From assembly GCF_018919065.1 (NCBI RefSeq), contig NZ_JAHLQG010000046.1, positions 1 through 64,000 of the forward strand: a stretch of 64,000 nt of DNA. The letters run 5' to 3'. The stretch is from Blautia sp. MSJ-9 (GTDB lineage: Bacteria > Bacillota > Clostridia > Lachnospirales > Lachnospiraceae). The translations under genes and the position numbers were made by a program. Under the pieces are notes generated by a model, which saw only the letters and a list, made by a program, of their open reading frames with translations, was not told the DNA's origin and searched no databases. Every line of letters starts with the position of its first letter. Positions within the stretch are counted from its first letter, which is position 1. Positions 9,510-22,036 of the stretch are shown here, one piece after another.

Positions 9510-9712
9510 CCTATACCCTCCACAAGAATTGCATTTTTTGTAACTGTTCAATCACACAATATAGTCCCAGGTTTTTATTATTATTTTATAAATAATTTTT
9601 GTTTCAGTATATCACTGCTTTTTTCTTGCGTCAAGCGGATGTAATATTACAAATTACAGCTGTATAATCTGGGTTTCTTTTATAATATATCCACAGTAAA
9701 TCTCCTCATTCT

Positions 9713-10462
9713 TTAAATAGAAAGTAGAAATTCTGTTAAGTTTTCAATAGCATCTGGTTTTTCTGATAGTTCTTTCCCCATCAGTCCCTCTCCCATAATA
9801 CTAGGATCCGCGCCAAGAGATACAGCGACTCGACTTGAATTCCATACAGCTTCATACATCATTTCCTGATTCTCTTTTGTTACTTTATTGAGAACGTAAT
9901 AAAATGGTTTTCGAATACTTTCCGATAATTCCCCGATTTTTTTGGAAAGCTGTAGGGATTCATAGGATGGATCTATGATTATCAATATCAAATCTACACC
10001 GTTATCAATTCCACGTCCAAAGTGTTCAATACCAGCCTCCATATCCATTAGCGCAAATTGGTCTTCTTTAAGCCTGAGATTTTGGATAAATTGAGTCATA
10101 ACAGTTCCCATAGCACAAGAACACCCTTCATTTGCCTGATGGATTTTTCCACTGCTCATCAGTTTTACACCGTCCTTCAGACTATAATAATCTTCCGGTA
10201 TATCATCTATAGTCCAGGTTTCCTCAAAAAACTGATGAGTAAATTTTGATAACATCATATCATTTAAAACATTTTGCTTACCACCGAAATAGTCTGTAAA
10301 ATCTCTGGGAAGCTTCATACCTAGCTGTCGGTGTAGGCCATAATTAGATTCATCGGAATCAATTACCAAAATTTCTTTTCCTCGTCTGGCTAAAGCCTTA
10401 GCCAAAAGACTGGTTACTGTACTTTTTCCACATCCACCTTTTCCACAAACTGCTATTTTCAT
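9713..10462 (-). CDS. CooC-like P-loop ATPase, second copy
   Basis: 249 residues, MinD/ParA-like (SIMIBI) ATPase with deviant Walker A GKGGCGKST (7-15), a DSDESNYGLHRQLG segment, and switch-II region DMEAGIEHFGRG. Cys114 and Cys116 in EGCSCAMG form the Cys-x-Cys pair that binds metal between CooC subunits. CooC proteins insert nickel into carbon monoxide dehydrogenase; the client here is unknown. SD GGAG lies 11 nt before ATG. It is 136 bp behind the zinc-ribbon gene and may be read from the same operon. Nif/NifH-type or other metallochaperone roles remain possible. Confidence 0.75.
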   Translation of the reverse strand: MKIAVCGKGGCGKSTVTSLLAKALARRGKEILVIDSDESNYGLHRQLGMKLPRDFTDYFGGKQNVLNDMMLSKFTHQFFEETWTIDDIPEDYYSLKDGVKLMSSGKIHQANEGCSCAMGTVMTQFIQNLRLKEDQFALMDMEAGIEHFGRGIDNGVDLILIIIDPSYESLQLSKKIGELSESIRKPFYYVLNKVTKENQEMMYEAVWNSSRVAVSLGADPSIMGEGLMGKELSEKPDAIENLTEFLLSI

Positions 10463-10598
10463 CTCTATATTTACTCCTTTTCTTTTTTTCTAAATAATAA
10501 GTATTACACATGACCATGCTTCAAACTGTTTTCGAAAAATAATTAAATTAATATAATGTCTATTTTGCCATTACATCAAATATCTCCTTAAATGCTTT

Positions 10599-10793
10599 TT
10601 ACTCTACTTCCTCCAGTTCTGTTCCTTCTGGAAGAATATATCCGCAGTTATCACATACTCCATCCTCTGCAAGTATCCCGTCTTTCACAAAGACTTCAAT
10701 GCCTCCCGGTTCATGACAGCGTGGACAATCTAATTCCTGTATCTTTTTCTGATTTCTTACATCCTGGCAATTGGCAAATTCAATTTTACCCAT
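10599..10793 (-). CDS. Small zinc-ribbon protein
   Basis: 64 residues with two CxxC knuckles, CPRC (about residue 23) and CDNC (about 48), predicting one bound Zn (or Fe). The acidic tail is GTELEEVE. ATG 10793 has GGAGG 7 nt upstream; a longer frame to 10823 would overlap the VWA gene. It directly follows the VWA gene (16-bp gap), so it is probably cotranscribed. No family recognised; an adaptor or metal carrier role in the cluster is inference. Confidence 0.7.
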   Translation of the reverse strand: MGKIEFANCQDVRNQKKIQELDCPRCHEPGGIEVFVKDGILAEDGVCDNCGYILPEGTELEEVE

Positions 10794-10809
10794 AGTGATT
10801 CCTCCATTT

Positions 10810-12627
10810 TCATTCCATATCAATTTGTCTTCGCAAAAAAGTTCCTACCATACGGGAAAAATTGCTGATATTACGAATATAGGCAAAATCTTTTCCATAG
10901 ATTCTCTTTTCCACGGAGAGCTCTTCTTCATTCCCTACAAAAATACCAATTACGAAAATTCCCTGATTTCTGGCCCGACGCACCTCATATGCAGTATCTT
11001 TCACAGCTCCTTCTCCGTCATAGATCTTGGGCTGGCGGGTTCCTGGTCGTTGTATGCTCATATCACAGGGTTTTCCATCACTTAATACGATTAAAATCTT
11101 ATTTTTTTCCGGTCGCCCCATGAGAGAGGAAGAGACTGTTTTCAGTGCAAGCCCATCTCTGTTATTGGCATACGCCCGAAATTGAAAGATTCTTTCATTT
11201 GTTTCCCTTGGATCTTCATAATCCCGAAATCTCTGAAGTACTGTATATCCCCAGAAAGCACAGTATCCTGTCACCCGATGAGGAATTCCTGCCTGGCTTA
11301 ATGCTTCACTAATAATATATCCCTGCGCCGCTACCTGAGCCTGTCTGCCAGCTTGGGAACCACTGGAATCAATCAGGACATCTATTACAAACTCAGAATC
11401 TTCTGATCTCTTTTTTCTATTAAATAACTTGTCATCGTCTGTTCTTCCAATTTTCCATAACCTTTCAGGAACAAGCTGCCCTGCATCAGATCTGCTGACA
11501 AAATCATCCTTTCGGATTATAAGTGCCCGTTTCAGTGACTCTGCCAACACAGAAATATTTCTTTTGATGATCCAGTGATTATTTCCATAATAGGCTTTAT
11601 TTTTTTCAAACTGCAGCTGAGAAAAACGGTATTGATTATTTTTTATCACAGGGTTCTGTAAAATTCCATCTGTAAGATACAGGATACAGTTTTTGTGGAT
11701 TCCTGTACAAAATTTCCGGTTGACTCTGGCCTGCTCCGATTCACTTAGATACGATTTTCCGTAATTCAGTTCCACATATTCCCGTATCCGTCGCACTGCC
11801 TGTGGATTTATATTCTCCGAGCTTTCCGGAACTTCTTCATTTTCCGGAGAGAAATAAAATCTTTTTTTCTTTTGGTTTCTGATATCCAGACTCATCATCT
11901 TTTTTTTGATATTAGAAAGATATTTTTGAATGATGTCTTCCATCTGTTCATCCGTCATGCATTCCTGCCACGCGTCATTGGCCAATGCCATATCCGGTAA
12001 ATTCAGAATCTTCTCCAGATTTCCATTCTTTTTTTCAAAAGAGGGATCCAAAACATGATTATAAATCTCATCTATCACGTTTATGACATCTTCCGTATTT
12101 TCTGCATCCTTCAGAGAAAGAATCTTGTACAATGCAATCTCTGCCTGCGGATCCATTCCCTCATCGTCTGTGTTCTTCAGAACATGCCTTATATACAAAA
12201 GCCTAATCCTGTGAATCAGGTCTGTTCCAGCATTATCTGATATCTGCTCTTCCTCGGCCTTTTCCAATTCTCCGAATGCCTGTTCTCTGATTTCCTTTGT
12301 TCCCAAACGTTCTCGAATGATAAAACGATTCACTGCAGCATCCATGCATAATCCGGCAATAGGCAAAAGCATATCTTCCCCAGCAGAAAAATGTAATTTT
12401 TTCATCAAATACATGCCAAGTTTCTTCTGATCAAAATATCGTGCAAAGGCACCCTGCTTCACTGCCTCATACAGAACCGTTTGTTTTGAATAAACATATT
12501 TTTCTGTGTCCGGTTCAAATTCCATATCATAATCACCACTGACTGTCCAAAAAATATTTCTGATACGATTGCTGATCTCCAGACGATGTTCTTCCAGTTG
12601 TTCCGCCGGCCATCTGACATCCTCCAT
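10810..12627 (-). CDS. VWA-domain protein, partner of MoxR ATPase
   Basis: 605 residues. The C-terminal third is a von Willebrand A domain with an intact MIDAS: Asp420, Ser422 and Ser424 in LIDSSGSQAG, and ILIVLSDGKPCD further on. The N-terminal 400 residues are helical, charged and unrecognised. MoxR/VWA pairs (NorQ/NorD, CbbQ/CbbO, CoxD/CoxE) remodel or load metal into enzyme complexes; the MIDAS binds the client. The start follows GGGGG by 9 nt; the gene is 6 bp behind moxR. Between CooC genes, it points to metal-centre maturation. Confidence 0.83.
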   Translation of the reverse strand: MEDVRWPAEQLEEHRLEISNRIRNIFWTVSGDYDMEFEPDTEKYVYSKQTVLYEAVKQGAFARYFDQKKLGMYLMKKLHFSAGEDMLLPIAGLCMDAAVNRFIIRERLGTKEIREQAFGELEKAEEEQISDNAGTDLIHRIRLLYIRHVLKNTDDEGMDPQAEIALYKILSLKDAENTEDVINVIDEIYNHVLDPSFEKKNGNLEKILNLPDMALANDAWQECMTDEQMEDIIQKYLSNIKKKMMSLDIRNQKKKRFYFSPENEEVPESSENINPQAVRRIREYVELNYGKSYLSESEQARVNRKFCTGIHKNCILYLTDGILQNPVIKNNQYRFSQLQFEKNKAYYGNNHWIIKRNISVLAESLKRALIIRKDDFVSRSDAGQLVPERLWKIGRTDDDKLFNRKKRSEDSEFVIDVLIDSSGSQAGRQAQVAAQGYIISEALSQAGIPHRVTGYCAFWGYTVLQRFRDYEDPRETNERIFQFRAYANNRDGLALKTVSSSLMGRPEKNKILIVLSDGKPCDMSIQRPGTRQPKIYDGEGAVKDTAYEVRRARNQGIFVIGIFVGNEEELSVEKRIYGKDFAYIRNISNFSRMVGTFLRRQIDME

Positions 12628-12633
12628 ACAAGT

Positions 12634-13566
12634 TTACCCCCATATGTCTTTTCCGGTCCAGGAAGATGGGATTCTGGTAGAAACCACATCTTCTATGATC
12701 TCTTTTTCAAATACATCAAAACTTTTATTTATGATCCCCATCTGGATTGCATCAATTGGAGAAAGTCCGCTTTTTGTTGCTTTTACAGCAGAAACCAATC
12801 CTCTCAGGTCAAGAGATTTTGTTGAGATTTCTCCATGATAAGCTTTGATCTGCAAATCCAGAAACAGTCCTGCAAAAGCTTTCAGTGCACTTTTTTCCCC
12901 ATCTGGAAAATGTTGTCTTAATACAAAAAGGACACTATCCTCATCCATTTCAGGCATATCAATTACCATAAACCTTGAAACCAATGCTTCATTTAGCTCT
13001 CTGGTACCTGCGTAACCATAATTCATCGTGCCGATAAATCGTGTTGCCGGATGAAGTAAAATCCTGTTATATCCTGGAATATCGATTCTGCGCCGATGAT
13101 CCAGTGTGGCATGCAGTACAGAAACCGCATCATTTTTTGCCATATTGATTTCGTCCAGGATTCCAAATCCTCCAAATTCCGCGCATTGGTAGATAGGGCC
13201 TTTCCGAAGGCTAACCTCATTATTTATAAAGGTATCCGTTCCAATCAGATCGGCACTGTCTGTATTTACATGAAAAGAAATGTCGTATTCCGGTCTTCCG
13301 AATATCCATGCCAGTGTCTCACATAGTACATTTTTTCCTGTAGCTTTCGCACCGGAAAGTAACAGGTTATCTCCCTGAAGAAGCGCTGCTATTGACATTT
13401 CCAGAATCTTTTTCCCATAAAATAGGATATCCGGTTTTTCTACCCGTTCCTTTACCTGATCCTCTACCTCATAACGCATGTGAAAATCTCTCAGTTCTCC
13501 AATCAGTTCCTGCGCTATCTTCTGGTCTTCTAAATATTTTTCTATTTCTGTCCAATGATTTCTCAT
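12634..13566 (-). CDS. MoxR-family AAA+ ATPase
   Basis: 310 residues when started at ATG 13566 (AAAGGA 8 nt upstream); the open frame runs on to 13680 through a repeat and is not used. Walker A is GAKATGKN (72-79), with Asn where Ser/Thr normally follows the Lys; Walker B is GILDEIN (about 134-140); sensor 1 is FIGTMNYGYAG; an arginine-finger region is NEALVSRFMVIDMPE. It should act as a hexameric chaperone with the VWA protein. The Asn in Walker A should change Mg coordination and may mean altered ATP use. Confidence 0.85.
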   Translation of the reverse strand: MRNHWTEIEKYLEDQKIAQELIGELRDFHMRYEVEDQVKERVEKPDILFYGKKILEMSIAALLQGDNLLLSGAKATGKNVLCETLAWIFGRPEYDISFHVNTDSADLIGTDTFINNEVSLRKGPIYQCAEFGGFGILDEINMAKNDAVSVLHATLDHRRRIDIPGYNRILLHPATRFIGTMNYGYAGTRELNEALVSRFMVIDMPEMDEDSVLFVLRQHFPDGEKSALKAFAGLFLDLQIKAYHGEISTKSLDLRGLVSAVKATKSGLSPIDAIQMGIINKSFDVFEKEIIEDVVSTRIPSSWTGKDIWG

Positions 13567-13586
13567 GAAGCTTTTCCTTTCTTTGC

Positions 13587-13754
13587 AATTATAGCAATCC
13601 TCGTAAATAATGCATTTAAGACAGTTCAGCAGAGTGCGAAAGACAAGGAAGATATCTGCAGGCGTGCTGACGCACGGCAAAGATATCTGACGCAGGATTT
13701 CACACTCTGATGGGCTGGATTAAGATGCATTATTTCAGAGGATTGCTATAGTTA
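13587..13754. repeat. Imperfect palindromic MITE-like element A
   Basis: Left arm from ATAGCAATCCTC (13591) and right arm ending GAGGATTGCTAT (13749) are imperfect inverted copies of about 50 bp, with ATAATGCAT in both. It sits between cooC and moxR, and runs into the 5' extension of the moxR frame. A related sequence (GCACGGCAAA..ATATCT, CACACTCTGAT..) occurs at 61805-61895. Probably a non-autonomous mobile element or a genus repeat; it could also attenuate read-through from cooC. Confidence 0.65.
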
Positions 13755-13810
13755 TATCAAATCAGATAATATTTCTGTTTACTCAATCTTCAAACTTTCA
13801 ATCCTCCAAC

Positions 13811-14581
13811 TCACAATCCTAACTTCTTTACAATTTCTCCCAGTGCACTTCTTACAGGAGAATCTTTCGGAAGCCGTATGATCGGCTTTCCATCGCAGTC
13901 ATACTGATAAACCTGGTTATCATGAGGCACCACCCCTAACAATTCCAGTCCCTGATTTCGAATTTCTTCCAGAGTTCCGGCATCCAGTTTTCCATCCGGA
14001 ACACGATTCACGATTAATCCAGTCTTCTGTGGTTTAAAGTTTAACTCCTTCATCAGCTTTGCAATACGTCCGGCTGCCTGAACACCTCTTCTGGAACAGT
14101 CACTTACAAGAATCGCAACTTCCATCATTGGCAGGATTCCTCTGCTGATATGTTCCATACCTGCTTCGTTATCAACCACAATATATGGATAATGACCTTG
14201 CAGTTTCTGAACCTGGGTCTGCACAAGACCATTTACAAAACAATAGCAGCCCTGTCCCTGGGTTCGCCCCATTACCATCAAATCATAATCGTCTTCTTCT
14301 GCAATTGCATCGGAAAGACGCATTTCCAGATAAGCCTGTTTTGTCATTCCTGCCGGAATCTGATATCGTGGATCAACTCCTGCACGTTCAATCTCTTCTC
14401 TCAGTTCTCCGAGTGTAATCTCCGGTTCAACGCCGAGCACTTCATTCAAATTCGCATTTGCATCTGCATCTACAGCTAAAACCGGATGTTTTCTATTTTC
14501 ACATAAATATTGAATTAACAATCCACAAAGGGTTGTTTTCCCTACGCCACCTTTTCCTGATACTGCAATTACATGTCCCAT
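13811..14581 (-). CDS. CooC-type nickel-insertion ATPase
   Basis: 256 residues, SIMIBI ATPase: Walker A SGKGGVGKTTL (8-18), switch I DADANANLNEVLG, switch II VVDNEAGMEHISRG. Cys112 and Cys114 in GQGCYCFVN match the CxC pair known to bind Ni/Zn in CooC of CO dehydrogenase. It would load nickel into CODH or an ACS-like enzyme, using ATP. AGGAGG lies just upstream of ATG 14581. Its promoter overlaps a 21-bp inverted repeat shared with the YgbA-like gene (14612-14714). No CODH gene is in the window. Confidence 0.85.
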   Translation of the reverse strand: MGHVIAVSGKGGVGKTTLCGLLIQYLCENRKHPVLAVDADANANLNEVLGVEPEITLGELREEIERAGVDPRYQIPAGMTKQAYLEMRLSDAIAEEDDYDLMVMGRTQGQGCYCFVNGLVQTQVQKLQGHYPYIVVDNEAGMEHISRGILPMMEVAILVSDCSRRGVQAAGRIAKLMKELNFKPQKTGLIVNRVPDGKLDAGTLEEIRNQGLELLGVVPHDNQVYQYDCDGKPIIRLPKDSPVRSALGEIVKKLGL

Positions 14582-14611: not shown

Positions 14612-14714
14612 TTGACTTTTTCTTTAAACCTCATTATAGTTGTTACTATATAAATTACAATAATCAATCTGTGAGATTTGTATGGTTACTCAACACATCA
14701 GAAAAATTGTTGAG
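14612..14714. promoter_or_regulatory. Regulatory module copy 1 (cooC / tetR divergent region)
   Basis: Plus-strand promoter TTGACT (14612) N17 TATAGT (14635); minus-strand promoter TTGTAA N16 TATAAT (14633-14660). A 21-bp inverted repeat of form TTGTWA-N9-TTACAA (14640-14660) overlaps both. A second inverted repeat CTCAACA-N12-TGTTGAG lies at 14689-14714. The same parts with the same spacing occur at 16352-16455, so the two divergent regions are probably controlled by one regulator. Confidence 0.65.
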
Positions 14715-14749: not shown

Positions 14750-15397
14750 ATGTCAGAAAAAACGAGAAAACAAGATCGCCGTACCCGCTATACCAGGCAA
14801 ACCATAAAAGATACGTTCTTAGAGTTGTTAAATCAGAAAAGTTTTACGAAAATTACAGTTACAGAGATCTGCAAAAATGCTGAAATCAACCGTGGCACTT
14901 TTTATCTTCATTACTACGATATCCATGATGTATTATCAGATATTTTTAATGATATGACTCAGGATATGTTAACAACTGTAGATCATTTATTCTGTCTAAA
15001 TCAAAAAAGCTGTTCCTATCCGTTCTGTCAGAAAATACAGATGGAATCACAATACAGGGCACTGTTTCTGGATGATGCAATTGCCCCTATTCTTCTGGAA
15101 AAAATAGCAGAAAATACAAAAGAAGGCTATGTGACCTGGCTTATGTCACACAGCCTCCTGACCTTTGAACAGGCAGAATCGGTTTTTTATTTTCAAATGA
15201 ATGGCTGCCTTTCCATCAACAGACTGATGCTCCGCAATCACTGTAATGACTGGAAACAGATTCAGACAGTAATCGACAAATTTATCAAAGCCGGGTTGGA
15301 AAGTTTTCTGATTCATGATCAGAGAGAAGAAAATGCTTCCGATAATTTTTGCAGCAAAATTTCTCCAACTGTTACCGCATCTTCTACACTCAGATAA
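14750..15397 (+). CDS. TetR/AcrR-family regulator
   Basis: 215 residues with an N-terminal TetR HTH (FTKITVTEICKNAEINRGTFYLHYYDIHD, about 27-56; only the first part need be read as the helix-turn-helix) and an all-helical C-terminal domain of the TetR_C_7/DhaS-like kind. AGGAG lies 6 nt before the ATG. Divergent from cooC across the shared regulatory module, so it may control cooC and itself. Its last 79 bp overlap the convergent DUF3786 gene. Confidence 0.8.
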   Translation: MSEKTRKQDRRTRYTRQTIKDTFLELLNQKSFTKITVTEICKNAEINRGTFYLHYYDIHDVLSDIFNDMTQDMLTTVDHLFCLNQKSCSYPFCQKIQMESQYRALFLDDAIAPILLEKIAENTKEGYVTWLMSHSLLTFEQAESVFYFQMNGCLSINRLMLRNHCNDWKQIQTVIDKFIKAGLESFLIHDQREENASDNFCSKISPTVTASSTLR

Positions 15398-15945
15398 TGA
15401 TCGGCATGATCCTGAAGAAATATTTTGCCAGATACAGGAAATTCTTCATCTGCAAACCATATCTTTAAAGTTACCGGATATCTTGGCAGGACTGGAAAAA
15501 CAGCACACAGATCCGCCTTTGTCTCTGTGAATTCTGCACCCAGGTTTTTACATGCTTTCTGAATTTTCTCAGGATCTTTATCCTGCAAAAGCTTTTCCAG
15601 TTTCTGCTCTGCAGTCCGGTCAAACTTGGTTCCTCGAATCAATCCATCTTTCAGGTTACCAAAAGTAATGAGCTTCTGTGAGCCTTCTGTGCCATCGGCC
15701 ATATCCAGATAATGCAGCAATATCAGATAATGCCATTCATCCATATCTGCGTTAATATAAAACTCAGGAAGTTGAATTTCAATCACTTCATGAAAGCTCG
15801 GTACCTCAAGCATATTTTGACTGCTATGAAAAACAGCCCCACTTTTTGCAGCAATCTCCTCTCCGGAACGATTTTGCAGCCGTCTTACTGCTGCCTGCAG
15901 CATTTCCTGAAATGCACGATTTTCTGTTTGATTTTTGTATTCCAT
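15319..15945 (-). CDS. DUF3786 protein
   Basis: 208 residues. The segment YPVTLKIWFADEEFPVSGKI followed by FLQDHADHYLSVEDAVTVGE is the conserved core of DUF3786, a domain often found near corrinoid/CO dehydrogenase genes in acetogens. Function is unknown; a redox or cofactor-binding role linked to the CooC cluster is inference. GGAGAA precedes ATG 15945. It overlaps tetR tail to tail by 79 bp. Confidence 0.7.
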   Translation of the reverse strand: MEYKNQTENRAFQEMLQAAVRRLQNRSGEEIAAKSGAVFHSSQNMLEVPSFHEVIEIQLPEFYINADMDEWHYLILLHYLDMADGTEGSQKLITFGNLKDGLIRGTKFDRTAEQKLEKLLQDKDPEKIQKACKNLGAEFTETKADLCAVFPVLPRYPVTLKIWFADEEFPVSGKIFLQDHADHYLSVEDAVTVGEILLQKLSEAFSSL

Positions 15946-15985: not shown

Positions 15986-16318
15986 TCAATGTTTATGCAA
16001 GGATTTTGGTGGTTTCATAAATCTGGCTTTGTCCGGATTCTCTTTCATCCATTCCCGGGCAAAATCCATTACCTCAGTCATAGTTTCATAATCTTTTCCA
16101 CAAAAACAGCAACTTGGGCATGTTGGACATGGCCATCCCTTATTTTTGAATCTGCATGCGTCTAAATGTCGGTATGCTCTTAATAAATTTGCTTCATATT
16201 CTTCTTTAGACTGTGAAGCTTCCCTGTTTTCACGATAATAAAGGTGATACATTTTTTTAGTCATATGTTTTTTGATTCTGGTATATAAATTTCCTTTTAA
16301 TTTGTCCACAATCAGCAT
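15986..16318 (-). CDS. Cys-rich YgbA_NO-like protein (nitrosative-stress associated)
   Basis: About 110 residues. The pattern AYRHLDACRF...CPTCPSCCFCGKDYE...VMDFAREWM resembles the YgbA family, whose E. coli member is induced by nitric oxide; five to six Cys could bind iron or zinc. ATG 16318 has GGAGG 10 nt upstream; an earlier TTG at 16327 is too close to the SD. Divergent from the Rrf2 gene with the same regulatory module as cooC. A role in NO or metal stress is inferred from similarity and context. Confidence 0.55.
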   Translation of the reverse strand: MLIVDKLKGNLYTRIKKHMTKKMYHLYYRENREASQSKEEYEANLLRAYRHLDACRFKNKGWPCPTCPSCCFCGKDYETMTEVMDFAREWMKENPDKARFMKPPKSLHKH

Positions 16319-16351
16319 ATTATACAATCCTCCGTAAGTTTCATTCCTGTG

Positions 16352-16455
16352 TTGACTTTTCCTTTACATTTCATTATAGTTGTAATTATATTATTTACAA
16401 TCATCAAAATAAAAAATATGTACAGTTTCTCAACACATTAAAAAGAGCTGTTGAG
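16352..16455. promoter_or_regulatory. Regulatory module copy 2 (ygbA-like / rrf2 divergent region)
   Basis: TTGACT (16352) N17 TATAGT (16375) on the plus strand; minus-strand TTGTAA N16 TATAAT. A 21-bp inverted repeat TTGTAA-N9-TTACAA at 16380-16400 and CTCAACA-N13-TGTTGAG at 16429-16455. Offsets from the -35 box to the second repeat are 77 bp here and at 14612, so the module is conserved as a unit. Confidence 0.65.
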
Positions 16456-16546
16456 AACTTGGAAAGTTTTAGACAAACCAGAAATATTTTCGCCTCAAAA
16501 ATGTAAAACCAAAATCATTATATCATACTACAAGGAGTTTCTTATC

Positions 16547-16996
16547 ATGAAATACTCAACGAAATTAAGCGATACTGTCCATGTAATGGTTCTGATTGCT
16601 ATCAACCAGGAAAAATCTCTCTCCAGCGCCTCAATTGCAGAAAGTGTCCATACAAATCCCGGCTTTGTACGCCAGCTTATGTTAAAACTAAAAAAAGCCG
16701 GACTTATGACCAGTGTAGCCGGACATGCCCGTCCTTCTCTTTCAAAACCAGCAGACCAGATTACATTGCTGGATATTTATAAAGCAGTTGAAGGCGAGAA
16801 ACCGCTGCTTCATTTAGATACTCATACCAATCCAGATTGTGGCGTTGGCATTAACATTCAGTTATCTTTGCAGGGATTCTATAATGAAATCCAAAAAACT
16901 GCTGAAGAAAAAATGAATACGATTACTTTACAGGATATCATAGATACCTATTATCAGCGAACATCCATGCAAAATGATTTACAAAACATTATATGA
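16547..16996 (+). CDS. Rrf2-family regulator (YwnA/HypR-like)
   Basis: 149 residues from ATG 16547 (AAGGAG 9 nt upstream; the longer frame to 16451 is not credible). Winged-helix Rrf2 fold: SSASIAESVHTNPGFVRQLM is the recognition helix region. Only one Cys (NPDCG) is present, so it lacks the three-Cys [Fe-S] site of NsrR/IscR and is more like the redox-thiol members. Divergent from the YgbA-like gene, it is a candidate reader of the shared inverted repeat. Confidence 0.82.
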   Translation: MKYSTKLSDTVHVMVLIAINQEKSLSSASIAESVHTNPGFVRQLMLKLKKAGLMTSVAGHARPSLSKPADQITLLDIYKAVEGEKPLLHLDTHTNPDCGVGINIQLSLQGFYNEIQKTAEEKMNTITLQDIIDTYYQRTSMQNDLQNII

Positions 16997-17011
16997 CAGG
17001 AGAATATTCTT

Positions 17012-17107
17012 ATGCATCGCATAATTTTTCGGAACAGCTTTTCATACCAGATGATGGACAGGGTTATTCTCTATAAAAGTATCAAAGAGATCATTCCTTC
17101 TCCTTGA
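17012..17107 (+). CDS. Possible 31-residue ORF after rrf2
   Basis: AGGAG 9 nt before ATG 17012, 15 bp behind the rrf2 stop; the product starts MHRIIFRNSFSYQMMDRVIL and ends IIPSP. It may be a real small protein or the N-terminus of a deleted gene. No family recognised. Downstream (17108-17442) I see a terminator, a MITE end and a possible 35-40-codon minus-strand remnant, but no gene. Confidence 0.3.
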   Translation: MHRIIFRNSFSYQMMDRVILYKSIKEIIPSP

Positions 17108-21862: not shown

Positions 21863-21865
21863 ATT

Positions 21866-22029
21866 TAGAGCGTGTTTGAAAAATGCTTTACGCAAGATGT
21901 GCGTCACAATTTGTGGGAGATTTTGTTCGGATGAGGGCGTCGTAGTGGGCTACGACAACCGAATTCGGACAAAATATACCGCAAAGTGGGGCGTGCAGAT
22001 TGCGGGAATGATTTTTCAGACACGCTCTA
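21866..22029. mobile_element. 164-bp palindromic MITE
   Basis: Starts TAGAGCGTGTTTGAAAAAT and ends as its near inverse ATTTTTCAGACACGCTCTA; the arms are about 80 bp with a central GTCGTAG..CTACGAC stem. Flanking TA may be the target duplication. No ORF. It sits between the terminator of the kinase gene and the 3' end of thrS. A solo end occurs at 17295. Confidence 0.85.
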
Positions 22030-22036
22030 GCACATA

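Follow-up and report, generated by a model that had tools for sequence, protein, structure and literature searches.

What client is served by a gene cluster that joins two CooC-type ATPases to a MoxR-type AAA+ ATPase, a von Willebrand factor type A (VWA) protein and a small four-cysteine protein? Such a cluster lies in the window analysed here, a stretch of 64,000 nucleotides from the draft genome of Blautia sp. MSJ-9 (57 contigs, 84% complete), and an earlier note on this DNA had proposed metal-centre maturation by a relay of metal delivery and client remodelling. Recurrence of the gene set in other genomes and its phylogenetic profile support maturation and name a likely client, the nickel complex of carbon monoxide dehydrogenase (CODH) and acetyl-CoA synthase (ACS), for which a relay of this kind would be plausible. 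We lean towards the view that the cluster is a mobile accessory kit that builds or repairs CODH/ACS in acetogenic Clostridia.

The link to ACS comes from co-occurrence. VWA proteins were called high-scoring above the score gap seen in the results, with queries (P0003, A1 and A5) that differed between samples. Among 150 Lachnospiraceae genomes from 150 genera, 15 carried such a protein, 17 carried ACS and 14 carried both, and all 14 VWA-bearing genera other than that of the window genome had ACS. The pattern repeated in 391 genomes of Clostridia (VWA in 16, ACS in 21, both in 15) and in 71 genomes of family f60 (31, 43 and 31, with two of the VWA genes split); one-sided Fisher tests, which ignore kinship, gave 4e-17 (own genome excluded), 2e-21 and 1e-10, and 9e-4 for f60 counted by genus. 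In the union of the Clostridia samples, 58 genomes had the VWA protein, 78 had ACS and 57 had both, the sole VWA genome without ACS being that of the window, while genomes with only weaker VWA relatives had ACS in 2 of 39 cases. The rule within Clostridia is that the VWA protein implies ACS and the converse fails. We regard the link of the cluster to ACS as well supported, and the relation to a metalloenzyme on which the earlier note's proposal turned is found in this nickel enzyme. A prismane/CODH search of 30 genomes gave a small hint that the correlate is ACS rather than CODH, as two of them (G072 and G088) have a CODH-type open reading frame (ORF) of 721–752 aa and neither ACS nor a high-scoring VWA protein.

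The genes also recur together in other genomes, as that proposal presupposed. We compared the best 80 of 284 confirmed relatives, 79 of which had a VWA ORF by a simple ORF picker. In these 79 named loci the VWA gene was near MoxR in 68, and CooC1 lay within 6 kb in 13 of the 16 loci whose VWA protein was at least 52% identical to that of the window, against 1 of the 63 below this value, where MoxR was near the VWA gene in 52; the clustering is more than chance. The 16 close loci had MoxR in 16, CooC1 in 13, the four-Cys protein in 12, a TetR-like gene in 10, the nickel ATPase AcsF in 8 and CooC2 in 7. The set recurs in other orders (L153, L154), and another such locus (L097) has MoxR, AcsF and CooC1 with a short VWA match only. 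In a further one, of family f56 (L224), we found TetR, CooC1 (73% identical), the four-Cys protein (38%), AcsF (68%), MoxR and VWA. Between CooC1 and AcsF, L224 (12963–13217, 84 aa) and L097 (9444–9680, 78 aa) encode mutually similar small proteins, that of L097 having no Pfam match.

Several of these components are shared with acs loci. Six of the seven Lachnospiraceae acs loci compared were ordered CooC, AcsA, AcsF, AcsB, and L095 was arranged otherwise (AcsA and AcsB were assigned by size and search matches, with AcsB of L098 masked by the ORF picker). Window CooC1 is 71, 69, 68, 70, 69, 64 and 56% identical to the CooC proteins of these seven loci, and a DUF3786 protein, also encoded next to the window cluster, follows AcsV in L101 and stands beside an AcsV-like ORF in L095. 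A CooT-like protein, judged by sequence, precedes CooC in L086 and L094. An f56 operon (L220) comprises AcsV, DUF3786, AcsD, AcsC, AcsE, AcsA, AcsF and AcsB, after which the same strand goes on to encode a His-rich protein, CooT (PF10133), DUF3842, a 74-aa protein, VWA and MoxR; a second f56 operon (L236) has the same small genes, but VWA and MoxR are not there. These four small genes follow acsB in the same order in both loci (L220 10247–11513; L236 9693–11108, last protein 74–75 aa), and their His-rich protein has no Pfam match.

The five clustered ORFs of the window are intact, all on the minus strand between 14581 and 9713, exactly where the earlier note had put them, and the Cys-x-Cys pairs (CYC and CSC) that it had seen near residues 112–116 of the two ATPases are present, at the same positions in near-identical copies. 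CooC1 and CooC2 both have the deviant Walker A motif GKGGxGK[TS] and match Pfam CbiA (PF01656; 4.7e-19 and 2.8e-11, respectively). According to the accessible part of a 2018 review, Cys112/114 form the nickel-binding site of C. hydrogenoformans CooC1, and CooC is important under scarce nickel (PMC6006190); nickel binding and a role in CODH/ACS activity are putative traits of the window proteins. In a tree, ten CooC1 rows from satellite clusters, which lie away from acs, group together (90/97, below the strict mark) beside the rows from acs loci, and the satellite AcsF rows form no single group. For evolved E. limosum, grown in nickel-supplemented medium, the portion of the report at hand gives a frameshift in a cooC2 gene listed beside acsA (PMC7079680).

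In Blautia schinkii (L141) and other relatives, acsF often lies between the four-Cys gene and CooC2, its product being 73–75% identical to AcsF of acs loci; the gene is truncated in L152 and absent from the window. An 11-bp sequence borders acsF at either end in L141 and occurs once in the window, as a deletion between direct repeats would leave it; its single copy probably marks where acsF was deleted, this being the presumed direction of change. Fusicatenibacter L147 also lacks acsF, but with a different junction.

MoxR was recognized as an AAA+ protein in the earlier note, and its Pfam match is AAA_5 (2.3e-17); its start is likely the ATG at 13566 rather than the TTG at 13680. The DE of Walker B is invariant in the alignment, and 98 of 100 ORFs have a Walker A that ends in GKN instead of GK[ST]. 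The VWA protein matches CobT_C (PF11775; 58.7 bits, cut-off 21) and has an extra C-x3-H-x2-C at residues 307–314. Its metal ion-dependent adhesion site (MIDAS), described in the earlier note as intact, is so in part: DxSxS and the later Asp of SDG are invariant in 19 aligned rows, whereas the Thr position of NorD is an invariant, CobT-like Asn, so that the NorD-type DxSxS-T-D is incomplete. NorD is the best fold match for a model of residues 294–603, pore finger included, which points to a NorD-like fold for this part; the N-terminal model had no clear PDB match and no NorD among the matches listed, where absence from the list is no exclusion. Weaker MoxR/VWA pairs with a GKN Walker A also occur in genomes without ACS (L237 6382–9245, L239 8106–10758, L099 8059–10709 and L100 7983–10636), and in G088 a weaker pair lies about 11 kb from the 721-aa CODH-type ORF.

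The accessible parts of two papers describe NorQD as an AAA+/VWA complex of finger-in-pore type, which puts a twist on a linker and makes metal insertion possible (PMC13036017; PMC9976466). We postulate that MoxR and the VWA protein would form a similar remodelling machine, in which the VWA finger would enter the pore of the AAA+ ring and the ring would twist the VWA protein. The N-terminal and linker part of the latter could grip apo-, wrongly metallated or damaged ACS, or ACS-bound CODH, the metal site of the client would open, and CooC1, with AcsF where present, would load nickel via the Cys-x-Cys sites. Further accessory roles may fall to CooC2, DUF3786 and the zinc-ribbon protein, and the island copy may be a conditional booster. 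We infer complex formation, client contact, site opening and nickel hand-over alike, and with them the recruitment of a NorQ/NorD-like pair to CODH/ACS in Clostridia, where it would work with the CooC/AcsF nickel ATPases. A more ambitious version, which we put forward tentatively, is a new nickel-centre machine: a dedicated MoxR/VWA engine, equipped with a Cys-x3-His-x2-Cys site and a helical domain that binds the client, would force ACS open for loading or reloading by CooC/AcsF, and gut acetogens would trade the inducible kit across genera.

Several observations weigh against this picture. The high-scoring line was set post hoc, after the gap had been seen, and the statistics take no account of kinship. 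In a phylum sample of 269 genomes, 83 had ACS and two had a high-scoring VWA protein (the window genome and one ACS-bearing Lachnospiraceae genome), so that the protein is missing from 82 of these 83 ACS genomes, as it is from 21 of the 78 in the Clostridia samples; ACS can therefore be made without it, and the idea of metal-centre maturation does not extend to a general ACS factor. ACS was not found in the window genome, an 84%-complete draft. It is present in 28 of 41 genomes of the same genus and in 18 of 20 good ones, and its absence here may come from a gap in the assembly. The MoxR profile scores the Midasin AAA+ ring above NorQ, CooC2 of L083 lacks the first Cys of its pair, and the neighbours of the common form of the pair, described below, are housekeeping genes.

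This common form was seen in every one of the 15 Lachnospiraceae genomes that carry a high-scoring VWA protein, each having a second or only pair without a CooC match in the region fetched. Because all of them carry a pair away from CooC, the cluster of the window may be an additional set and not the main machine. The common pair adjoins glutamine synthetase III in 25 of the 63 named loci, and other housekeeping genes elsewhere; for the second VWA protein of the window genome and the glutamine synthetase III beside it, the closest named relatives are from Blautia metagenome-assembled genomes (77 and 91%).

The extra set, in turn, has the marks of a mobile island. Its VWA protein is 95.5–96.5% identical among four genomes (G000, which is that of the window, G102, G027 and G118) whose other VWA proteins share 47–59%, and AcsA and AcsB are 83 and 85% identical between G102 and G118; since the satellite VWA proteins are far more alike than the others of the same genomes, the sequences indicate that the island has spread horizontally. 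The span 9713–14581 given in the earlier note is too short for the whole set, to which the DUF3786 gene and the divergent TetR-like gene also belong. In 12 island loci, with two of the genomes counted twice, DUF3786 occurs at above 91% identity; L143 and L146 end before it. A palindrome between TetR and CooC1 is retained in the aligned island copies, and L224 has a similar one elsewhere in the same gap; the cluster is probably TetR-controlled, which would make it inducible. An Rrf2 gene borders the island in near-identical copies. Shared DNA runs as far as 16968–17014 in the 11 island copies compared; in Fusicatenibacter it ends at 9686.

Table 1. Features of the cluster and its surroundings in the window
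Feature	Position	Strand	Description
CooC2	9713..10462	-	third CooC-type ATPase family, KGGCGKS, CSC 114-116
11-bp sequence, single copy	10581..10591	-	found on each side of acsF in Blautia schinkii L141; acsF probably deleted at this point
Four-Cys protein, 64 aa	10599..10793	-	two C-x2-C pairs, zinc-ribbon-like
VWA protein, 605 aa	10810..12627	-	helical N-terminal domain, linker, C-x3-H-x2-C, NorD-like finger and VWA domain
MoxR	12634..13566	-	MoxR-type AAA+ ATPase, Walker A GAKATGKN
CooC1	13811..14581	-	MinD/CooC-type ATPase, KGGVGKT, CYC 112-114
Palindrome CTCAACA-N12-TGTTGAG	14689..14714		between TetR and CooC1; candidate operator
TetR-like regulator, divergent	14750..15397	+	TetR_N 1.6e-4, below Pfam cut-off
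DUF3786 protein (PF12654)	15319..15945	-	Pfam 5.3e-42
Rrf2-family regulator	16451..16996	+	edge of shared island; candidate member only

Within the cluster, the gaps are 6 bp (MoxR to VWA), 16 bp (VWA to the four-Cys gene) and 136 bp (four-Cys gene to CooC2). None of the five proteins reached an NCBIfam cut-off among the rows listed, and the 64-aa protein, in which the earlier note rightly counted four cysteines, reached that of no Pfam zinc-ribbon model. Two elements resembling miniature inverted-repeat transposable elements were also observed: a 157-bp insert between CooC1 and MoxR (13592–13748; 29-nt inverted ends, 90% complementary), absent from the island copies compared and without a second copy in the window or the loci compared, and a weakly self-complementary 168-bp element (21865–22032) with 86–87% copies in L038 and at two places in L050, one of them upstream of the TetR gene. 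At 15986–16327, inside the island edge, a YgbA_NO-like protein is encoded (PF11756, 25.4 bits, cut-off 25); this stretch is unbroken in L050 and wholly or partly gone from the other island copies compared. Beyond the window, at G000:C14:87100-88665 (L001), lies the only prismane-family match of the window genome, a 536-aa ORF of hybrid-cluster-protein rather than CODH size.

Among other explanations, the one that survives best is that the pair serves another acetogenesis enzyme (a corrinoid protein, methyltransferase, formate dehydrogenase or hydrogenase) and stands beside CooC and AcsF because all take part in acetogenesis. It fits the VWA protein matching the cobaltochelatase subunit CobT as well as NorD, the management of ACS without the pair outside Clostridia, and the position of the common pair outside the acs operon in the Lachnospiraceae loci compared. 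We consider it unlikely, as the clustered genes are nickel/CODH accessory genes (CooC, AcsF and DUF3786, in L220 also CooT and the His-rich protein) and no other client gene stood beside the pair in the neighbourhoods checked, no profile against those enzymes having been run. It is less probable still that the island is a conditional repair set, which re-activates CODH/ACS after nitric oxide, oxygen or nickel stress and is unused in normal assembly. Several features would suit such a set: the extra copy has a TetR-like regulator and a palindrome to itself, an Rrf2 gene lies at the edge of near-identical copies, and most ACS genomes are without the island; yet in most island copies the aligned stretch has no YgbA-like neighbour, no Rrf2 match lies beside the distant clusters (L151, L153, L154 and L224), and the common pair exists without stress-type neighbours. 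A lack of any functional link, in which pair and ACS would be inherited together as marks of a lineage and the satellite cluster would be an island of duplicated genes carried along as a passenger, is very improbable: copies do lose AcsF, CooC2 or the zinc ribbon, and the VWA gene is in pieces in L047 and G546 and reduced to a stub in G026, but the ACS link repeats across separate samples (14 of 14 genera; 31 of 31 f60 genomes) and weaker VWA relatives do not track ACS.

How the nickel sites of CODH/ACS are built is still an open question. The consulted part of the 2018 review calls the mechanism of CooC undetermined and asks why some CODHs manage without it (PMC6006190), and in a 2026 study of the genes around CODH, CooC, CooJ and CooT are named, and the words MoxR, AAA and von Willebrand are absent from the main text as far as accessible (PMC13056359). 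Our literature search, with preprints and most subscription papers beyond its reach, returned no paper joining MoxR with CooC, none with MoxR, VWA and CooC, and none with ‘von Willebrand factor type’ and acetogen; papers naming MoxR, acetogen and carbon monoxide dehydrogenase had other subjects by title and opening of abstract, and the MoxR match in the search with acetyl-CoA synthase or CODH concerned, in the part seen, a Mo-Cu enzyme. If the mobile-kit reading is true, the ACS-linked remodelling ATPase would supply a missing factor in concrete form and might help to obtain active CODH/ACS in other hosts.

Among known systems, NorQ/NorD, which inserts iron into nitric oxide reductase, shares fold and pore finger with the VWA protein of the cluster, which differs in its MIDAS Asn for Thr, its extra C-x3-H-x2-C and an N-terminal domain without clear PDB match, and in having CooC/AcsF as neighbours. 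CoxD/CoxE apply the MoxR/VWA logic to the Mo-Cu CO dehydrogenase, an unrelated enzyme with an unrelated metal centre, and in a system not known to include CooC. With CobS/CobT of aerobic cobaltochelatase, the cluster shares the CobT_C match and the MIDAS Asn; however, its VWA protein scores 32.6 bits, far below the NCBIfam CobT cut-off of 759, and no cobaltochelatase context was noticed in the loci compared, no search for CobN having been made. Finally, CooC1 and CooC2 share the deviant Walker A and Cys-x-Cys of the CooC/AcsF nickel ATPases, and CooC1 is close to CooC of acs loci, whereas the cluster lies away from acs and is joined to MoxR/VWA, and CooC2 is a separate family.
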